A stretch of DNA of 64,000 nt from Alphaproteobacteria bacterium (GTDB taxonomy: Bacteria > Pseudomonadota > Alphaproteobacteria > SMXS01): the NCBI GenBank assembly GCA_028284945.1, contig JANQQJ010000006.1, forward strand, positions 62,001-126,000, given 5' to 3'. Numbering within the stretch: the stretch's first letter is position 1; each line of letters opens with the position of its first letter. The position numbers were made by a program, and so were the translations under genes. This document shows, piece after piece, positions 12,757 to 60,299 of this stretch. The notes below the pieces were generated by a model. The model worked only from the letters and a program-made list of their open reading frames with translations. It was not told where the DNA came from and ran no database searches.

Positions 12757-14133
12757 CTAGTCGTCCAAATACATATCCAGCGTCCGGTGCGTGCGGCGGA
12801 TGCGGTTTTCCTGGTAATGCGCGAGCTGTACTTCGGGCCGGAAGGTGGCGTTGAGGCCGTCCTGCACACCGGCCATGTTTGTTGTGTCCTGGTCTAGCAC
12901 AAACCCCAGACCGCCGAGTTCTTCGGCGTCTTCCCATTTCTGATCCAGGGTCAGGAAGTTGAACGGGGCCGGCGCCGGTTTTGGCTGATCCTTGGGGTGC
13001 CGGAGGATGTAGCCCACCTCCATCAGCGTTTCTGACTCGCTGTCCTGCCAGGGCCTAAAGCGGTACCACATGTTCGGGCCATAGCCGCCCCAGAACATCA
13101 TGTTCGGGAAGATGTTGTAGTACCAGCCGTCGACTAGTTCAGCGTCCGAGACCTTCGATAGGTCCTCCCCGGTGGCGGCTTCCGCCATCGCGCGGTTTTC
13201 ATCGGCCACCGCCGTGCGTGCCGTCTCACCGGGTTCAAGTGTGCGGTAATCCTGATCGCTTTCCGTCGGCCGTCGGCCACGCCACTCGTCATAGACGTCC
13301 TGCTGGGTCACCTGGTCGATGACATAAGAGCTGGCCGCGGCAAATGGCACCATCATGCGGTTCACATGCGGTTTATCCTGCCAGGTGTCGTACTGACAGC
13401 CAAAGTCATCGACACTGCCGACAATTTGCGGGTGGGTGTCGAGCGAATGGAAGCTTTCCATGAAGGCTTCCTGGATCACCTTCCAATTGCCTTTCAGGAC
13501 CTTGCCGACATGAACGCCCAGATAGCTCTGATCCCATAGGTAGGGTTCATAATGGCGCTTGATCGGGTCGAGGTACTGGTCGATCGGCATGGCATCGGGA
13601 TCCGGGTTGATGAACACCCAGCCGGCCCAGGTTTCACAGTGGATTTCGGGCAGGCTGAAACTCTCCTGTTTCAGATCCGGGAAATCCCATTCGCAGGGGA
13701 TGTGCGCGCTGGAGCCATCCAAGGCCCAGGTGAACCCGTGGAACGGGCAGCGGAATTGCTCCGCATGCCCTGACTCATCACGCAGCTTGCGACCCCGGTG
13801 AAGGCAGACATTCGGATAGGCCTTAATCAGGTTTTCTTCGACGCGGACGATCAGATAGGAACGTTTGGCGATTTCATAGACATGATAGTCGCCGACATTG
13901 GGAATGTGCTCCTCCCGGCAAGCCATTTGCCAGACCTTGTCCCACATGGCGCGTTCGCGTTCATAGAACTCCCGGCTGGTATAGCGCTTGGGGTCCAGCG
14001 GTGCGGTCCCCATATCGTCATTGCCGACTTCGCGAAATGCCCGTGGCGCTTCATTGCGGTCCGCATCCAGATAATCCTGGTAGGTGCTGTGCGGCGACGT
14101 CTGCGCCGGAATTTTTTCGAGGTCATATCCCAT
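12757..14133 (-). CDS. Rieske non-heme iron oxygenase alpha subunit (1)
   Basis: The 458-residue protein has a Rieske cluster motif (CLHRG then CPFHGFTW) and the mononuclear iron site in NWKVIQEAFMESFHSLDTH, where the bridging residue is Glu instead of the Asp usual in naphthalene dioxygenase. Such enzymes hydroxylate or demethylate substrates with O2 and electrons from a reductase/ferredoxin. The ATG at 14133 has CGGAGA eight bases upstream, better than the first ATG at 14169. No beta subunit or reductase gene lies beside it. A 143-residue unknown gene precedes it on the same strand. The closest relative within the window is the Rieske gene at 54287-55669 (shared EHIPxVGDxYVYD-like segments). 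Substrate unknown. Confidence 0.93.
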   Translation of the reverse strand: MGYDLEKIPAQTSPHSTYQDYLDADRNEAPRAFREVGNDDMGTAPLDPKRYTSREFYERERAMWDKVWQMACREEHIPNVGDYHVYEIAKRSYLIVRVEENLIKAYPNVCLHRGRKLRDESGHAEQFRCPFHGFTWALDGSSAHIPCEWDFPDLKQESFSLPEIHCETWAGWVFINPDPDAMPIDQYLDPIKRHYEPYLWDQSYLGVHVGKVLKGNWKVIQEAFMESFHSLDTHPQIVGSVDDFGCQYDTWQDKPHVNRMMVPFAAASSYVIDQVTQQDVYDEWRGRRPTESDQDYRTLEPGETARTAVADENRAMAEAATGEDLSKVSDAELVDGWYYNIFPNMMFWGGYGPNMWYRFRPWQDSESETLMEVGYILRHPKDQPKPAPAPFNFLTLDQKWEDAEELGGLGFVLDQDTTNMAGVQDGLNATFRPEVQLAHYQENRIRRTHRTLDMYLDD

Positions 14134-41547: not shown

Positions 41548-42003
41548 ATCCCTACCCGTTCGCCCTGAGCGCGGGGCCCGCAAGGCGGGCGACGCAGTCG
41601 AAGGGTCCTTGCGAATGGGTAGGGATAGTTGGGCGGTCAGATGGCATTCTGGGTCTACATGCTGCAGTGTGCCGATGGATCCTACTATGCGGGCCATACA
41701 GATGATCTAGAGCGCCGCGTTGGTGAACACCAATCGGGCGCCATCGTCGGGTACACTCACAAACGGCGTCCGGTAACGCTGGTCTTCCAGCAAGATTTCT
41801 CGAACCGCTATGAAGCATTGTCGGCGGAACGCCAGATCAAGCGCTGGACCCGCGCTAAGAAGGAAGCGCTGATCGCGGGCAACTGGAACGAACTTTCACT
41901 ATTAGCGAAGGGACCCCGCTGAAAAACTAGCCGCCCGCGAGAAGCCTTCGACTGCTCCCCTTCGGCGGGCTCGGGGTCGCGCTCAGGCCGAACGGCTAGT
42001 TTT
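41548..42003. mobile_element. Family-A element: GIY-YIG gene between inverted palindromic repeats
   Basis: The left arm (41548-41626) is bounded by ATCCCTACCCGTTCGC and GCGAATGGGTAGGGAT (16 bp including one G-T pair) and holds GCCCGC-AAG-GCGGGC. The right arm (41923-42003) is bounded by AAAACTAGCCG and CGGCTAGTTTT (11 bp perfect). Read inward both arms share CGTTCGSCCTGAGCGCG and CAGTCGAAGG, in inverted orientation. The GIY-YIG frame fills almost exactly the space between. A gene-less inverted pair of the same repeat lies at 58820-58927. Confidence 0.75.
41641..41922 (+). CDS. GIY-YIG family endonuclease (UPF0213/YhbQ-like), in element A
   Basis: The 93-residue protein is a single GIY-YIG domain: FWVYMLQCADGSYYAGHTDD (GIY and YIG tracts as VYM and YAG), LERRVGEHQSG (catalytic Arg) and AERQIKRWTRAKKEAL (Glu). 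The nearest relative in the window is the protein at 48343-48633. The gene lies between inverted palindromic repeats, and its stop abuts the right arm. ATG 41641 is preferred; 41629 is an in-frame alternative. A DNA-cleaving role in moving the element is plausible but unproven; stand-alone members of this family are poorly characterised. Confidence 0.88.
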   Translation: MAFWVYMLQCADGSYYAGHTDDLERRVGEHQSGAIVGYTHKRRPVTLVFQQDFSNRYEALSAERQIKRWTRAKKEALIAGNWNELSLLAKGPR

Positions 42004-42023: not shown

Positions 42024-43217
42024 CTATTCAGCCGCCTGTGCCGTCGGCTGGAACAGCGCGGTCAGGTCCTCGTCCTTGGTGTCGAGAATGCGATCGACCC
42101 AGCCATGGAAATTCTGCCCGCCACCTTCGTTGCGGCCGAACAGAACCGTCTTGCGGGCGCCGCTTTCCAGCGCCTTCTGCTGCCGCAGACCCATGCCATA
42201 ATCTTCGGTCTCAACGACATATTTCAGCAGTTTGAACTGCTCATCGGCCTCCATAGCCTGTTGTTCATTGGGTTCGTTTTCCATCAGGTAGTATTGCGTG
42301 GTGAAGGACTCACCGGGCGTTTCGCCGGGCACCAGCTGCGACAGCATCACGCTGCGCCCGCCGCCGGGGAAACCGGCGATGGAGATATGCGGGAAGATCG
42401 TCCAGACGCCCATCAAAAGCGTGTCGTCGTCCCAGTTTTCTTCGGGAATATCCTCCAGCGGGATCATGTGACGCGACGGCGACGTCACGCGCTGGTGCGG
42501 TCCCCAGGCGTGATAGAGCGCCTGGTTCGACATTTCCGGGCCAAAGGTTTCCCGGTGCAGCACCGGCAGGTGATAGAAATCGAGATAGCCGTCATAGGCG
42601 ATCTTCCAGTTCGGGCCGCGCACGGTCCGGGTCTGGAACAGGTGCCAGTTCTCGAACCCGAAGGTTTCCAGCAATTCGTCATAGCCGGCCATAAAGGCGT
42701 CGAAATCGAGCGTCGAGTCCGGGTCCAGAATGCCCCAGATCAGACCTGCGCGCTCGAACACCCGCAGCGGCGTCAGGCCATAGCATGACTTGTCGATATC
42801 GCCGAATTCGTCGTTGGAGGCAACGGCGCGAAGATTGCCTTCGCGGTCGAAGGTCCAGCCGTGATAGCCGCAGGTAAAGCGCTTCGCGTTGCCGGTGCCT
42901 TCCAGAACCACATTGGTGCCACGGTGGGTGCAGCTGTTGATGAAGCCGCGGACCACGCCATCGGCGCCCCGGGTCAGCAGGATCGGCAGACCCACCACGG
43001 TCATGGATTTGTAGTCGCCGTCATTGGGAAGCTGGGCCGTCGGCGCCAGAACAAGCGGCATGCGCTTGAACACTTTGTCGACTTCGGCATCGAAGCGGTC
43101 CGGATCGAAATAGTTCGCGGCCGGGATTTCGCGGACCTCATCCGCAATGTCGATTGTTCCGGCTTTTGCATGCGCGATGTTTTCCCGCGCAATTTGAATA
43201 AGCTGTTCTTTTCCCAC
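42024..43217 (-). CDS. Rieske non-heme iron oxygenase alpha subunit (3)
   Basis: The 397-residue protein has CTHRG and CGYHGWTF (Rieske) and NWKIAYDGYLDFYHLPVLH (iron site with Asp at the bridging position). It resembles the protein at 51874-53049 in its N-terminal FKRMPL and DGDYKSM-type segments and in the WGPHQR segment, so the two are related oxygenases. GTG at 43217 follows GGAGGCAGCA. It ends 21 bases after the element-A right arm and is divergent from an SDR gene. Substrate unknown. Confidence 0.93.
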   Translation of the reverse strand: MGKEQLIQIARENIAHAKAGTIDIADEVREIPAANYFDPDRFDAEVDKVFKRMPLVLAPTAQLPNDGDYKSMTVVGLPILLTRGADGVVRGFINSCTHRGTNVVLEGTGNAKRFTCGYHGWTFDREGNLRAVASNDEFGDIDKSCYGLTPLRVFERAGLIWGILDPDSTLDFDAFMAGYDELLETFGFENWHLFQTRTVRGPNWKIAYDGYLDFYHLPVLHRETFGPEMSNQALYHAWGPHQRVTSPSRHMIPLEDIPEENWDDDTLLMGVWTIFPHISIAGFPGGGRSVMLSQLVPGETPGESFTTQYYLMENEPNEQQAMEADEQFKLLKYVVETEDYGMGLRQQKALESGARKTVLFGRNEGGGQNFHGWVDRILDTKDEDLTALFQPTAQAAE

Positions 43218-46896: not shown

Positions 46897-48192
46897 TCAA
46901 TCGACGTCGAATTCAAGCCAGAGCTCGGCCGGTGACCGGAAGCCGCCGGAGTCGATATTGGGCGAGAAGATCCCCGGGTGGTCCTTGAATTTGGGCCGCA
47001 GGTTCTTGAGCTGATTGGCGAAATGCGTGCTCGCCAGCACCGCTTCCTGCCGTGCCATGGCATAGCCCATGCAGAAATGCTGGCCCATGCCGAAGCCCAG
47101 ATGTCCTGGTTTGCCGTCCTTATAGCGGCCGGACCGGTTCTCGCGGCCCATATGCAGGTCGTCGCGGAAGGCATCGAACGTATCCGGGTCCTTGAACACC
47201 CGCTCGTCGCGGTTGCCGGCCCCCAGATAGATGATGACGTTGCCGCCCTTGGGGATGACCTCTTCATAGAGTGCTATGTCCTCGGTCGCCCGGCGGAATT
47301 GCATATGCACAACCGGGTCGTAGCGCATCATTTCGGTAAAGACGTTTTCCCACAGCTCCGGGTTCTCGCGCACCTGATCATATTGATCGGGCCGCGTGTA
47401 CATCATGTGATACCACATGTTGGAAATGGCCTTGTCGGTGGTGTCACCACCGGCCGCCAGCAGCAGCGCGACAAAGCCTTTGATCTCTTCGTCGCTCATC
47501 TTCTTGCCGTCGCGCTCGGCATGGATGATGCGGGACAGCAGGTCTTCGCCCGGCTGCGCCCGGCGTTGCTCCAGCAGCGGATTCAAATATTCCCACATCT
47601 CGTTGCGGGCCGCGATGCCGCGGGCCAGATGCTCGCCGCCAAAACCCAGGCCCGCGATCAGTGCCTGATACCAGCCGACGAACATGTCTTCGTCTTCGCG
47701 CGGCAGGCCCAGCATGTTGGAGATCACACGGATCGGGAACTGATTGGAGAACTCGCTGACGAGCTCGACCTCGCCCTTTTCCTTGAACTTGTCGATCAGC
47801 TCCTGGGCGATCAGGTCGATAAAGGGCAGAAAGTCATTCAGCTTCTGGCCGACGAACTGCCCGGCGATCACATTGCGCAGCCAGCGATGATGGTCACCGC
47901 GGCCATATTCCAGGATGTTCGGGCCGAAGACGTGCTTCTTGCCGAATTCATAGGGGCCCTCTTCGTCATAAATGCCGCGCGTATAGGCTTCCGTTGCCTG
48001 GAAGACAGCATCCACATCCCAATAGCGGCTGATCACCCATCTGTTGTGAAAGCGGTCGTGGTAGCAGGGGTGGTGGTCCCGCAGCCGCTGATAGAGTGGA
48101 AATGGGTCCTTTTGAAAATCAGGCTGGTCGAATTCACGTGGGTCGATGGCCGTGGCCAGCATTTCCCTAATCTGGTCTTCCGCTGCAGACAT
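46897..48192 (-). CDS. Cytochrome P450
   Basis: The 431-residue protein has intact bacterial P450 motifs: AAGGDTT in the I helix (247-252), ExxR (Glu287-Arg290 in EMMR), and the heme loop FGMGQHFCMG with Cys374. ATG 48192 follows AAGGGAAAGACA and is preferred over a longer in-frame start. It is followed by the ferredoxin gene and TauD gene, so it has its own electron donor. The family-B GIY-YIG element sits between it and the upstream PhyH gene. The substrate is unknown; a hydrophobic terpene, steroid or alkyl compound is plausible. Confidence 0.95.
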   Translation of the reverse strand: MSAAEDQIREMLATAIDPREFDQPDFQKDPFPLYQRLRDHHPCYHDRFHNRWVISRYWDVDAVFQATEAYTRGIYDEEGPYEFGKKHVFGPNILEYGRGDHHRWLRNVIAGQFVGQKLNDFLPFIDLIAQELIDKFKEKGEVELVSEFSNQFPIRVISNMLGLPREDEDMFVGWYQALIAGLGFGGEHLARGIAARNEMWEYLNPLLEQRRAQPGEDLLSRIIHAERDGKKMSDEEIKGFVALLLAAGGDTTDKAISNMWYHMMYTRPDQYDQVRENPELWENVFTEMMRYDPVVHMQFRRATEDIALYEEVIPKGGNVIIYLGAGNRDERVFKDPDTFDAFRDDLHMGRENRSGRYKDGKPGHLGFGMGQHFCMGYAMARQEAVLASTHFANQLKNLRPKFKDHPGIFSPNIDSGGFRSPAELWLEFDVD

Positions 48193-48287
48193 TGTCTTTC
48201 CCTTCATGCATGACTTTTGGCAGGAGTGTAGCGGCTGGAGCAGTGCGCGTAAATCGTAAGAGGACAACGAATTGCGTGTACAAACCT

Positions 48288-48690
48288 CCGTTCGGGTCGA
48301 GTGATCCCGAGCGAAGCGAGGGATTGTATCGAGACCCTGGTCTCAGTTGCTCTTGAATCGCTTCTTGGCAGACGTTGATATCCGGCCCCAGTCACTCTGG
48401 ATAAGCGCCTCTTTCTTGGTGCGGCTCCACTTCTTGATCTGAAGTTCAGCGCGCAGGGCCTCTTCGCGGGTTGAAAACTCTTGTGAGAAGGCGAGCCGGA
48501 CTGGCAGTCGGCGCGAGGTATATCCCGCGAATAAACCGGACATGTGCTCACCGATCCGCCTTTCGAGGTCATCCGTATGGCCGGTGTAATACGTGCTATC
48601 CGCACAACGGAGCATATAAACCCAGAACGCCATGTCTTGCTTCTCGATACACCTTTTTCGCTGTGCTCAAAAGGCACTCGAAGCGAACGG
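48288..48690. mobile_element. Family-B element: GIY-YIG gene between inverted palindromic repeats
   Basis: The left arm (48288-48337) reads CCGTTCGGGTCGAGTG, a hairpin with GAGCGAAGCGAGG, then TGTATCGAGACCC. The right arm (48639-48690), read inward, has CCGTTCGCTTCGAGTG, GAGCACAGCGA and TGTATCGAGAAGC. The two arms are inverted copies that frame the GIY-YIG gene. The same left and right arm variants face each other with only ten bases between at 12638-12752. The element lies between the phyH and P450 genes of a same-strand run. Confidence 0.75.
48343..48633 (-). CDS. GIY-YIG family endonuclease, in element B
   Basis: The 96-residue protein has FWVYMLRCADSTYYTGHTDD, LERRIGEHMSG and AELQIKKWSRTKKEAL, so all GIY-YIG landmarks are kept (VYM, YTG, the Arg and the Glu). 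It is closely similar to the protein at 41641-41922, although the flanking repeats belong to a different family. The start lies six bases from the right arm and the stop six bases from the left arm, so the gene and repeats form one compact unit. No ribosome site stands out. Its presence inside a metabolic operon suggests insertion. Confidence 0.88.
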   Translation of the reverse strand: MAFWVYMLRCADSTYYTGHTDDLERRIGEHMSGLFAGYTSRRLPVRLAFSQEFSTREEALRAELQIKKWSRTKKEALIQSDWGRISTSAKKRFKSN

Positions 48691-58810: not shown

Positions 58811-58819
58811 GGAAGAAGC

Positions 58820-58927
58820 CCGTTCGCCCTGAGCGTGAGCGAAGTGAACAGTCGAAGGGTCGTTCCGAACGGACGTGGCGTCTCAAAACCGTTCGCAAGA
58901 AGCCTTCGACAAGCTCAGGCCGAACGG
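58820..58927. repeat. Inverted pair of family-A repeats, gene-less form
   Basis: The left hairpin is bounded by CCGTTCG (58820-58826) and CGAACGG (58866-58872) and contains CCCTGAGCGTGAGCG and AGTCGAAGGG. The right hairpin is bounded by CCGTTCG (58889-58895) and CGAACGG (58921-58927) and contains AAGCCTTCGACAAGCTCAGG, the inverted core. Sixteen bases separate them. The same core flanks the GIY-YIG gene at 41548-42003. The pair lies between convergent genes. Confidence 0.85.
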
Positions 58928-58949
58928 ATTTGTGGGCGCACCTGAGCCT

Positions 58950-60299
58950 CTAAAACACCACCGGCAGGTTCCAGCACGTATGCATTTCGCCCAGGCGAAG
59001 CGACCGTAGCGTCGGTTCCGCGCCGGGTTTCAGCCGTAAGTCAGGCAGGGCATTCAGCAATATATTTGAGGCTGTGACCGCTGTGTCACGGGTGATCGCG
59101 TAGAGCGACCGGGGCCGGTCTTCCGGCAGGGCGGGATGCTTTGATGGTGAGCCCAAACCCAGCGCGACGCCGGCGGGCAGGCCGTCGGCGCGGTAATGGC
59201 CGCGCGGTTCCCGCTGACAGAGATCCTTGCGCCCGACAATAAACTGGTCAGGGTTTTTGAATTGGCGCGGGTCCCGGTTGGCGCCAGCGGCTGCGCAATA
59301 AATCAGCCCGCCAATGGGCAACAATCGCCCGAAACGCTCGACTTCATGGCGGGCGAACCGCTTCTTCCAGAGTACGGGTGTGGAGTGCCGCAGTGTTTCG
59401 AGATAGGCGAAATTTGTGAGCCGCCGGTCGTTCGTCACCTTCGACATTTCATCCGGATGGGTGAGTAGCAGGAACCACATATTGGCCAGGGCGCCGTGCA
59501 GCGTTTCATGGTCCATCTCCAGCAGCGTGACGACCACATCTTCTGCGGTGGCCGGGCCGTCCGGCAGGTCCAATCCCGCGATGGCCGAGATCATGTCCTC
59601 GCCGGGTTGGTTTCGGCGCGTCTTCAGCAGAGGTCTGACCATTTCGAAGAGTTCGGCCATAGCCAGTTTGCCGGATTGCTCGTCCCGCGCTTCCCAGTCA
59701 TAGCCCCGCTGCATGCGCCAGAACAGTTCGACAAAACGGGCGAAGTCTTCCACCGGCAGGTCAAGCGCGCGCGCCAGCAGTTCCATCGGTAACCGCGCCG
59801 CAAAGTCCAGCGCCAGATCAGCGGCGCCTTTTGCCTTGAGATCTGCCACGATGGCTTCGGTGACCGGGCCGACATGCGCATCAAAAGCTCGCTCAAAGGC
59901 GGTCAGGACGGGCAGTTCCCCGCGCAGGTCCCGTCCATGGCCTTCCATGCGGTAGAACCATAATTTGGACCGGGTCTCGAAATTGCCTTCGTCGGTAAAG
60001 ATCGAGGTGACGTCGTTGTACCGGGTGATCCAATAGGAATTGCCCAGCCAGTCGCGGTAGCAGGGATAGTTCTCGCGCAGGGTCTCCAGGATGGGATAGG
60101 GGTTCTGCACGAACGCGGGCGAGATCAGTTGAACGGGCCGGATTTTCTCTGTGTTTTCGTGGACGCGCTCACGCTGATAGACCTCATAGGTGCGGTAATC
60201 CTCGTTCGTGCCGGTGCGGATGTATTCCGGCACACCGGTCCGGGATTTGGACGGCTTTGCGTTGCCGAGAATTTTGACAGGCGGGCGTTTGGTGCTCAA
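58950..60299 (-). CDS. P450-family protein lacking the heme-ligand cysteine
   Basis: The 449-residue protein has P450 architecture: an I-helix segment MDHETLHGAL, ExxR intact (YLETLR, 301-304), ANRDPRQFKNPDQF before the heme loop and PDLRLKPGAEP at the end. The heme-binding loop reads ALGLGSPSKHPALP: the normal F-G-x-G-x-x-x-C has Leu at the Phe position and Lys387 at the Cys position, and no Cys follows. Start is TTG 60299, four bases after the upstream P450 stop, so the two are coupled. It may have no heme, another axial ligand, or a partner role. Confidence 0.82.
   Translation of the reverse strand: MSTKRPPVKILGNAKPSKSRTGVPEYIRTGTNEDYRTYEVYQRERVHENTEKIRPVQLISPAFVQNPYPILETLRENYPCYRDWLGNSYWITRYNDVTSIFTDEGNFETRSKLWFYRMEGHGRDLRGELPVLTAFERAFDAHVGPVTEAIVADLKAKGAADLALDFAARLPMELLARALDLPVEDFARFVELFWRMQRGYDWEARDEQSGKLAMAELFEMVRPLLKTRRNQPGEDMISAIAGLDLPDGPATAEDVVVTLLEMDHETLHGALANMWFLLLTHPDEMSKVTNDRRLTNFAYLETLRHSTPVLWKKRFARHEVERFGRLLPIGGLIYCAAAGANRDPRQFKNPDQFIVGRKDLCQREPRGHYRADGLPAGVALGLGSPSKHPALPEDRPRSLYAITRDTAVTASNILLNALPDLRLKPGAEPTLRSLRLGEMHTCWNLPVVF

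Follow-up and report, generated by a model that had tools for sequence, protein, structure and literature searches.

F0, a gene on the minus strand of the window (the whole stretch of 64,000 nucleotides analysed here), probably encodes a heme-free paralogue of the cytochromes P450, a pseudoenzyme that arose once inside the clade of its neighbour F1 and acts as the obligate partner subunit of that intact P450. A heme-free partner of the intact P450 had been among the suggestions of an earlier note on this DNA, and with the substitution conserved and the synteny complete it is now the best-supported reading of F0. The loss of the heme anchor, the universal pairing and coinheritance with F1, purifying selection and an origin in the P450 clade of F1 can be read directly from the sequences; co-transcription of the two genes, physical binding of their products and activation or stabilisation of F1 would complete the picture. 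To the wider proposal of a two-subunit P450, in which a heme-thiolate P450 depends on a dedicated heme-free paralogue and the two are inherited and sometimes duplicated as a unit, we would give an even chance. In the accepted view a P450 works as a single chain and requires nothing but redox partners. If true, the proposal would place a catalytic/pseudoenzyme heterodimer inside the P450 superfamily, for which no precedent was found in the literature searched. It would add a new means of regulating or shaping what P450s do, through an obligate pseudo-subunit of the same fold, and might serve as a tool for their stabilisation.

Translation of the minus strand gives a frame that is open and uninterrupted from a TTG across all 449 codons, and this frame begins four bases past the stop of F1 (spacer TGCA), both as the earlier note had described. 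The TTG start is supported by the homologues, which begin with the same conserved MST. While the match of F0 to the Pfam p450 profile is marginal (19.1 bits, below the cut-off of 22.8), its sequence matches hundreds of solved P450s, with CYP134A1 (CypX) and its staphylococcal orthologue among the best, and of the NCBIfam profiles the CypX-type TIGR04538 comes closest. AlphaFold2 predicts a P450 fold from 67 sequences with a mean pLDDT of 86, confidence being low for residues 1-50 and for the heme loop. The 21-row alignment of F0 proteins alone had given a poor model (pLDDT 61), and the gain came with the addition of F1 and the other P450s of the relatives' loci. In a Foldseek search with this model the best PDB match is again CYP134A1 (TM 0.73 by query length, 0.84 by target length). 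CypX, however, is a catalytic heme-thiolate P450, whereas F0 has neither the Cys nor helix C. The features of F0 and its relatives are collected in Table 1.

Table 1. Positions of F0, its altered and retained elements, F1 and the F1b genes (window coordinates unless a locus is given).
Feature	Position	Strand	Remarks
F0, Cys-less P450-fold protein, probably heme-free	58950..60299	-	449 aa, TTG start
N-terminal extension, F0 residues 34-60, DYRTYEVYQRERVHENTEKIRPVQLIS	60120..60200	-	conserved; modelled alone with low confidence; candidate site of docking to the partner
Helix C deletion site, F0 residues 116-135	59895..59954	-	18-residue block of F1, GVEHRRRRNLFGQHLVGK, with HxxxR, absent
I helix centre, F0 residues 258-269, TLLEMDHETLHG	59493..59528	-	acid-alcohol pair retained, A/G-G lost
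ExxR (ETLR), F0 residues 301-304	59388..59399	-	E301 and R304 invariant
F0 residues 357-374, RKDLCQREPRGHYRADGL	59178..59231	-	block with highest conservation
Altered heme loop, F0 residues 380-400, LGLGSPSKHPALPEDRPRSLY	59100..59162	-	no Cys; 10 residues longer than normal; strongly conserved
K387 codon of F0	59139-59141	-	inside altered heme loop
F1, intact P450, 481 aa	60304..61749	-	FGVGPHMCPG, HxxxR, AGGGETT; immediately 5' of F0
F1b genes	L068:5982-7427, L069:8555-9994, L085:579-2024		no F0 beside

Central to the proposal is the constancy with which F0 accompanies F1. Every one of the 21 F0 genes found follows an F1 gene on the same strand at a distance of 3-26 bases, which answers the question of synteny with the intact P450 that the earlier note had raised. 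Among 385 genomes of the class, F0 (E <= 1e-40) is confined to seven, and exactly these seven also have F1 (>= 65% identity); one more holds only F1b, a P450 with 59% identity to F1 that stands without F0. Moreover, five genomes carry a tandem F1A-F0A-F1B-F0B arrangement, in which an A-type F0 always goes with an A-type F1 and a B-type F0 with a B-type F1. The F0 and F1 trees have 12 of 18 splits in common (mean 0.2 and maximum 3 in 1000 label shuffles), and their distance matrices correlate with r = 0.68, a value reached in none of 5000 permutations. Since adjacent genes share their vertical descent, such congruence is by itself no proof of interaction; more weight attaches to the facts that no F0 stands alone and that the pair is duplicated as a unit.

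In the mechanism proposed, F1 would be the heme-thiolate P450 that does the catalysis, and in most genomes the adjacent 3Fe/4Fe-type ferredoxin would feed it; F0 would be made together with F1 from one transcript. F0 would then bind F1, probably via its N-terminal extension and a proximal face rebuilt in the region of residues 357-400; once bound, it would stabilise or allosterically activate F1, or complete the F1 substrate pocket. The candidate docking segments, residues 34-60 and 357-400, are strongly conserved: R36, Y38, E39, Q42, R43, R45 and T50 are invariant within the first, and the most conserved stretches of F0 are rebuilt regions (CQREPRGHYR, mean entropy 0.16 bits; LPEDRPRSLY, 0.33). 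Further invariant residues are R314, R357, C361, H440 and C442.

As for the neighbouring genes, a gene for a 3Fe-4S/4Fe-4S or 2[4Fe-4S] ferredoxin, transcribed divergently, adjoins 13 of the 16 F0-F1 clusters. It is missing at the window locus and at L035, and the third cluster without it, L040, has too little upstream sequence to judge. At L035 the place directly upstream of the pair is taken by a gene of the SOUL heme-binding family (L035:5860-6453). Beyond the ferredoxin no neighbour of the pair recurs; the others differ between loci and so point to no shared pathway or substrate. This bears on the thought that F0 might instead be a substrate-binding or delivery protein, whose emptied pocket binds a hydrophobic substrate or product and passes it on to its partner, or shields a product that is unstable; a substrate chaperone had been among the earlier suggestions too. 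Such a role would suit both the pocket-lining I-helix and beta regions, which are among the most conserved in F0, and the setting of the window pair, which has oxygenases, a thiolase and SDRs around it, as is typical where hydrophobic compounds are broken down. Yet no pathway gene other than the ferredoxin recurs beside the pair, and the strongest conservation lies also in surface-type segments, the N-terminal extension and residues 357-400, so that we consider delivery unlikely.

The case for a heme-free partner subunit begins with the heme loop itself. In F0 this loop reads GVALGLGSPSKHPALPEDRPRS, and no Cys occurs between C361 and C442; the aligned loops of the family follow GLGKPSKHPAVPEDRPRS and variants of it. 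The axial Cys of FGxGxHxCxG is present in none of the 21 F0 proteins. As a control set served the 66 other P450s at these loci; the heme loop is covered in 65 of them, and all 65 have the Cys. Six P450-like proteins seemed at first to be without the loop motif, and the Cys was found in slightly variant loops in all bar one, whose contig ends before its heme loop. With 21 of 21 lacking the Cys and 65 of 65 retaining it, the loss in F0 is not a matter of chance. The earlier note, which had seen no Cys near this loop, thus holds for the whole family; a homologue with a normal Cys at the locus was looked for in the 21 pairs, and none was found. The same note had Lys387 standing in for the Cys. The Cys is indeed gone, but what lies opposite depends on the alignment: as the F0 loop is 10 residues longer, it is K387 in an ungapped reading and Ala390 in the 67-sequence alignment. 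Further, the His ahead of the loop FG is missing in F0.

The remaining contacts to the heme have changed as well. In P450s, helix C clamps the heme propionates through its HxxxR; in F0 this helix has been deleted, a feature that the earlier note did not mention, and the AlphaFold2 model has no helix at the position where F1 has its helix C. Likewise, the small A/G-G residues of the I helix pack against heme and O2 in P450s. Where these have (A/G)Gx(D/E)T, F0 reads TLLExDHETLHG, so that E-x-D takes the place of A/G-G, with a middle position that varies and is often bulky. Of the earlier statement that ExxR and the I helix are kept, the ExxR, a structural element in P450s, and the E-T pair stand, while the A/G-G does not.

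It could still be asked whether F0 binds heme through another axial ligand. The candidates would be His388 and Lys387, in keeping with the His- or Lys-ligated heme protein among the earlier suggestions, and the two invariant cysteines Cys361 and Cys442, if one of them reached the iron. The invariance of the ExxR, R314, R357, C361, H440 and C442 would be compatible with such a ligand, and C361 or C442 could in principle rescue the ligation. Against it, position 387 is K, R or I and position 388 is H, F or Y across the 21 proteins, so neither residue can be a family-wide ligand, and the HxxxR helix and the heme-facing glycines are gone. We hold an alternative ligand to be improbable. Variation at K387 and H388, a loop extended by 10 residues, the deletion of helix C and its HxxxR, and the replacement of the I-helix glycines together make it probable that F0 carries no heme, a judgement that draws on these features together with general knowledge of P450 structure.

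The same I helix carries a string, HETLH (residues 264-268, window 59496-59510), which reads as HExxH and is found as such in 20 of the 21 homologues. Together with the invariance of E261, D263, H264 and H268, positions that hold no conserved charges in F1 or other P450s, it might suggest that F0 has become a different enzyme with a non-heme metal site or an acid-base site built from these residues. However, the HET is part of the common P450 motif GHETT, from which the string is probably derived, one homologue has HQTLH, and no other metal-enzyme signature is seen, and a new active site is an idea to which we attach little probability.

The origin of F0 as a partner of F1 is reflected in the tree, in which F0 forms a single clade (SH-aLRT 100) on a long stem, inside a supported clade (99) that unites it with F1, the solo F1b and the P450 type of window 46897-48267. 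All of these have in common an insert of about 15 residues ahead of the heme loop, and the F0 block of residues 357-374 is homologous to this insert, which is otherwise common only to F1, F1b and the clade of the 46897-48267 P450. As F0 is one clade within that of F1 and the insert is common to all, the tree places the loss of the Cys as a single event following a duplication inside the P450 clade of F1. F1b offers a natural control for partner dependence: it apparently works without F0, so that an F1-type fold by itself does not call for a partner, a point against the proposal. No ferredoxin was found beside F1b at the two genes with enough upstream sequence.

A precedent for a P450-derived partner protein comes from glycosyltransferases. 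EryCII is a Cys-less P450 homologue without C helices; it uses an N-terminal helix to bind EryCIII, which it stabilises and allosterically activates (PMC3391682). Like F0, the P450-derived glycosyltransferase activators EryCII, DesVIII and TylMIII (TIGR04515) have a P450 fold, no Cys and no C helices, and are encoded beside their catalytic partner; judged by analogy, EryCII would be the nearest functional analogue of F0. The partner, however, is a P450 in one case and a glycosyltransferase in the other, and F0 differs from the EryCII family in its clade (the insert in common with F1), its loop and its N-terminal extension. That F0 is itself a member of this family and activates a glycosyltransferase is very improbable: although TIGR04515 is its second-best NCBIfam match and the Cys and helix C are lost in both, membership is refuted by its score, 88.8 bits where the cut-off stands at 343, and 19 other P450-like stretches of the genome outscore F0. 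Nor does a glycosyltransferase recur beside F0, whose constant partner is a P450, and no Pfam GT was found among the subset of neighbours scanned. With a score so far below the cut-off and ordinary P450s scoring higher, the likeness of F0 to EryCII is probably convergent, in so far as a tree that held no EryCII sequence allows.

The F0 family comprises 21 genes in 14 genomes and MAGs from several families of the class, found in a search of relatives, 385 genomes of the class and genome contigs, with gene coordinates at the relatives' loci set by homology. F0 occurs in eight of ten genomes of the window's own order, and the window's genome has a second F0-F1 pair on another contig (G000:C28, L039). 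In a sample of 399 genomes of the phylum, the window's own genome was the sole carrier, so the family is rare; the viral contigs searched held no relatives of F0, and the plasmids searched held only ordinary P450s with <60% identity. In close pairs dN/dS is 0.08-0.17 for F0 and 0.06-0.15 for F1, and F0 is thus under purifying selection (dN/dS about 0.1). A decaying pseudogene or an assembly error, to which the lost catalytic residue might have pointed, is effectively excluded by the intact homologues, the low dN/dS and the conserved rebuilt loop, in line with the earlier view that decay is unlikely.

It is also of interest why such a family should have escaped attention. P450 surveys drop proteins without EXXR or CXG as pseudo-P450s or fragments (PMC7369989, PMC7998510), and F0, with an EXXR but no CXG, would fall among the 'pseudo-P450s' (PMC7369989). 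These are a discard bin and no family, whereas F0 is a conserved, coinherited one; the family may have been overlooked because of this practice, and filters on EXXR and CXG would then be throwing away a real, conserved family (PMC7998510, PMC7369989). A literature search for a heme-free or Cys-less P450 partner of a P450, with subscription journals mostly outside its reach, returned only the EryCII line and the surveys. Heme-free partner proteins derived from P450s are therefore already known, and what is new here is probably that the partner is a P450.

Finally, several observations on the genome and the surrounding region may be added. About 34-46 P450-like matches per genome occur in the window's genome and its family, in genomes of 3.3-4.1 Mb, and a survey of Gammaproteobacteria reported at most six P450s per species (PMC7998510); this expansion is itself unusual. 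Right behind the F0 stop lies an imperfect inverted repeat (window 58812-58930, GTTCGCCCTGAGCGTGAGCGAAGTGAAC...CCTTCGACAAGCTCAGGCCGAACGG), a dispersed repeat; its conserved half has four copies in this genome and one in a relative, and 11 others lack it. Window 42024-63975 is a dense catabolic region with Rieske oxygenases at 42024, 51874 and 54206, TauD and PhyH dioxygenases, a thiolase, an amidohydrolase, an SDR, zinc dehydrogenases, a second intact P450 (46897-48267), an MFS transporter and a ThuA-like protein, and more Rieske genes stand at 12757 and 25989. Two small, related genes with a GIY-YIG nuclease domain (window 41629-41922 and 48343-48633) belong to one catabolic region.
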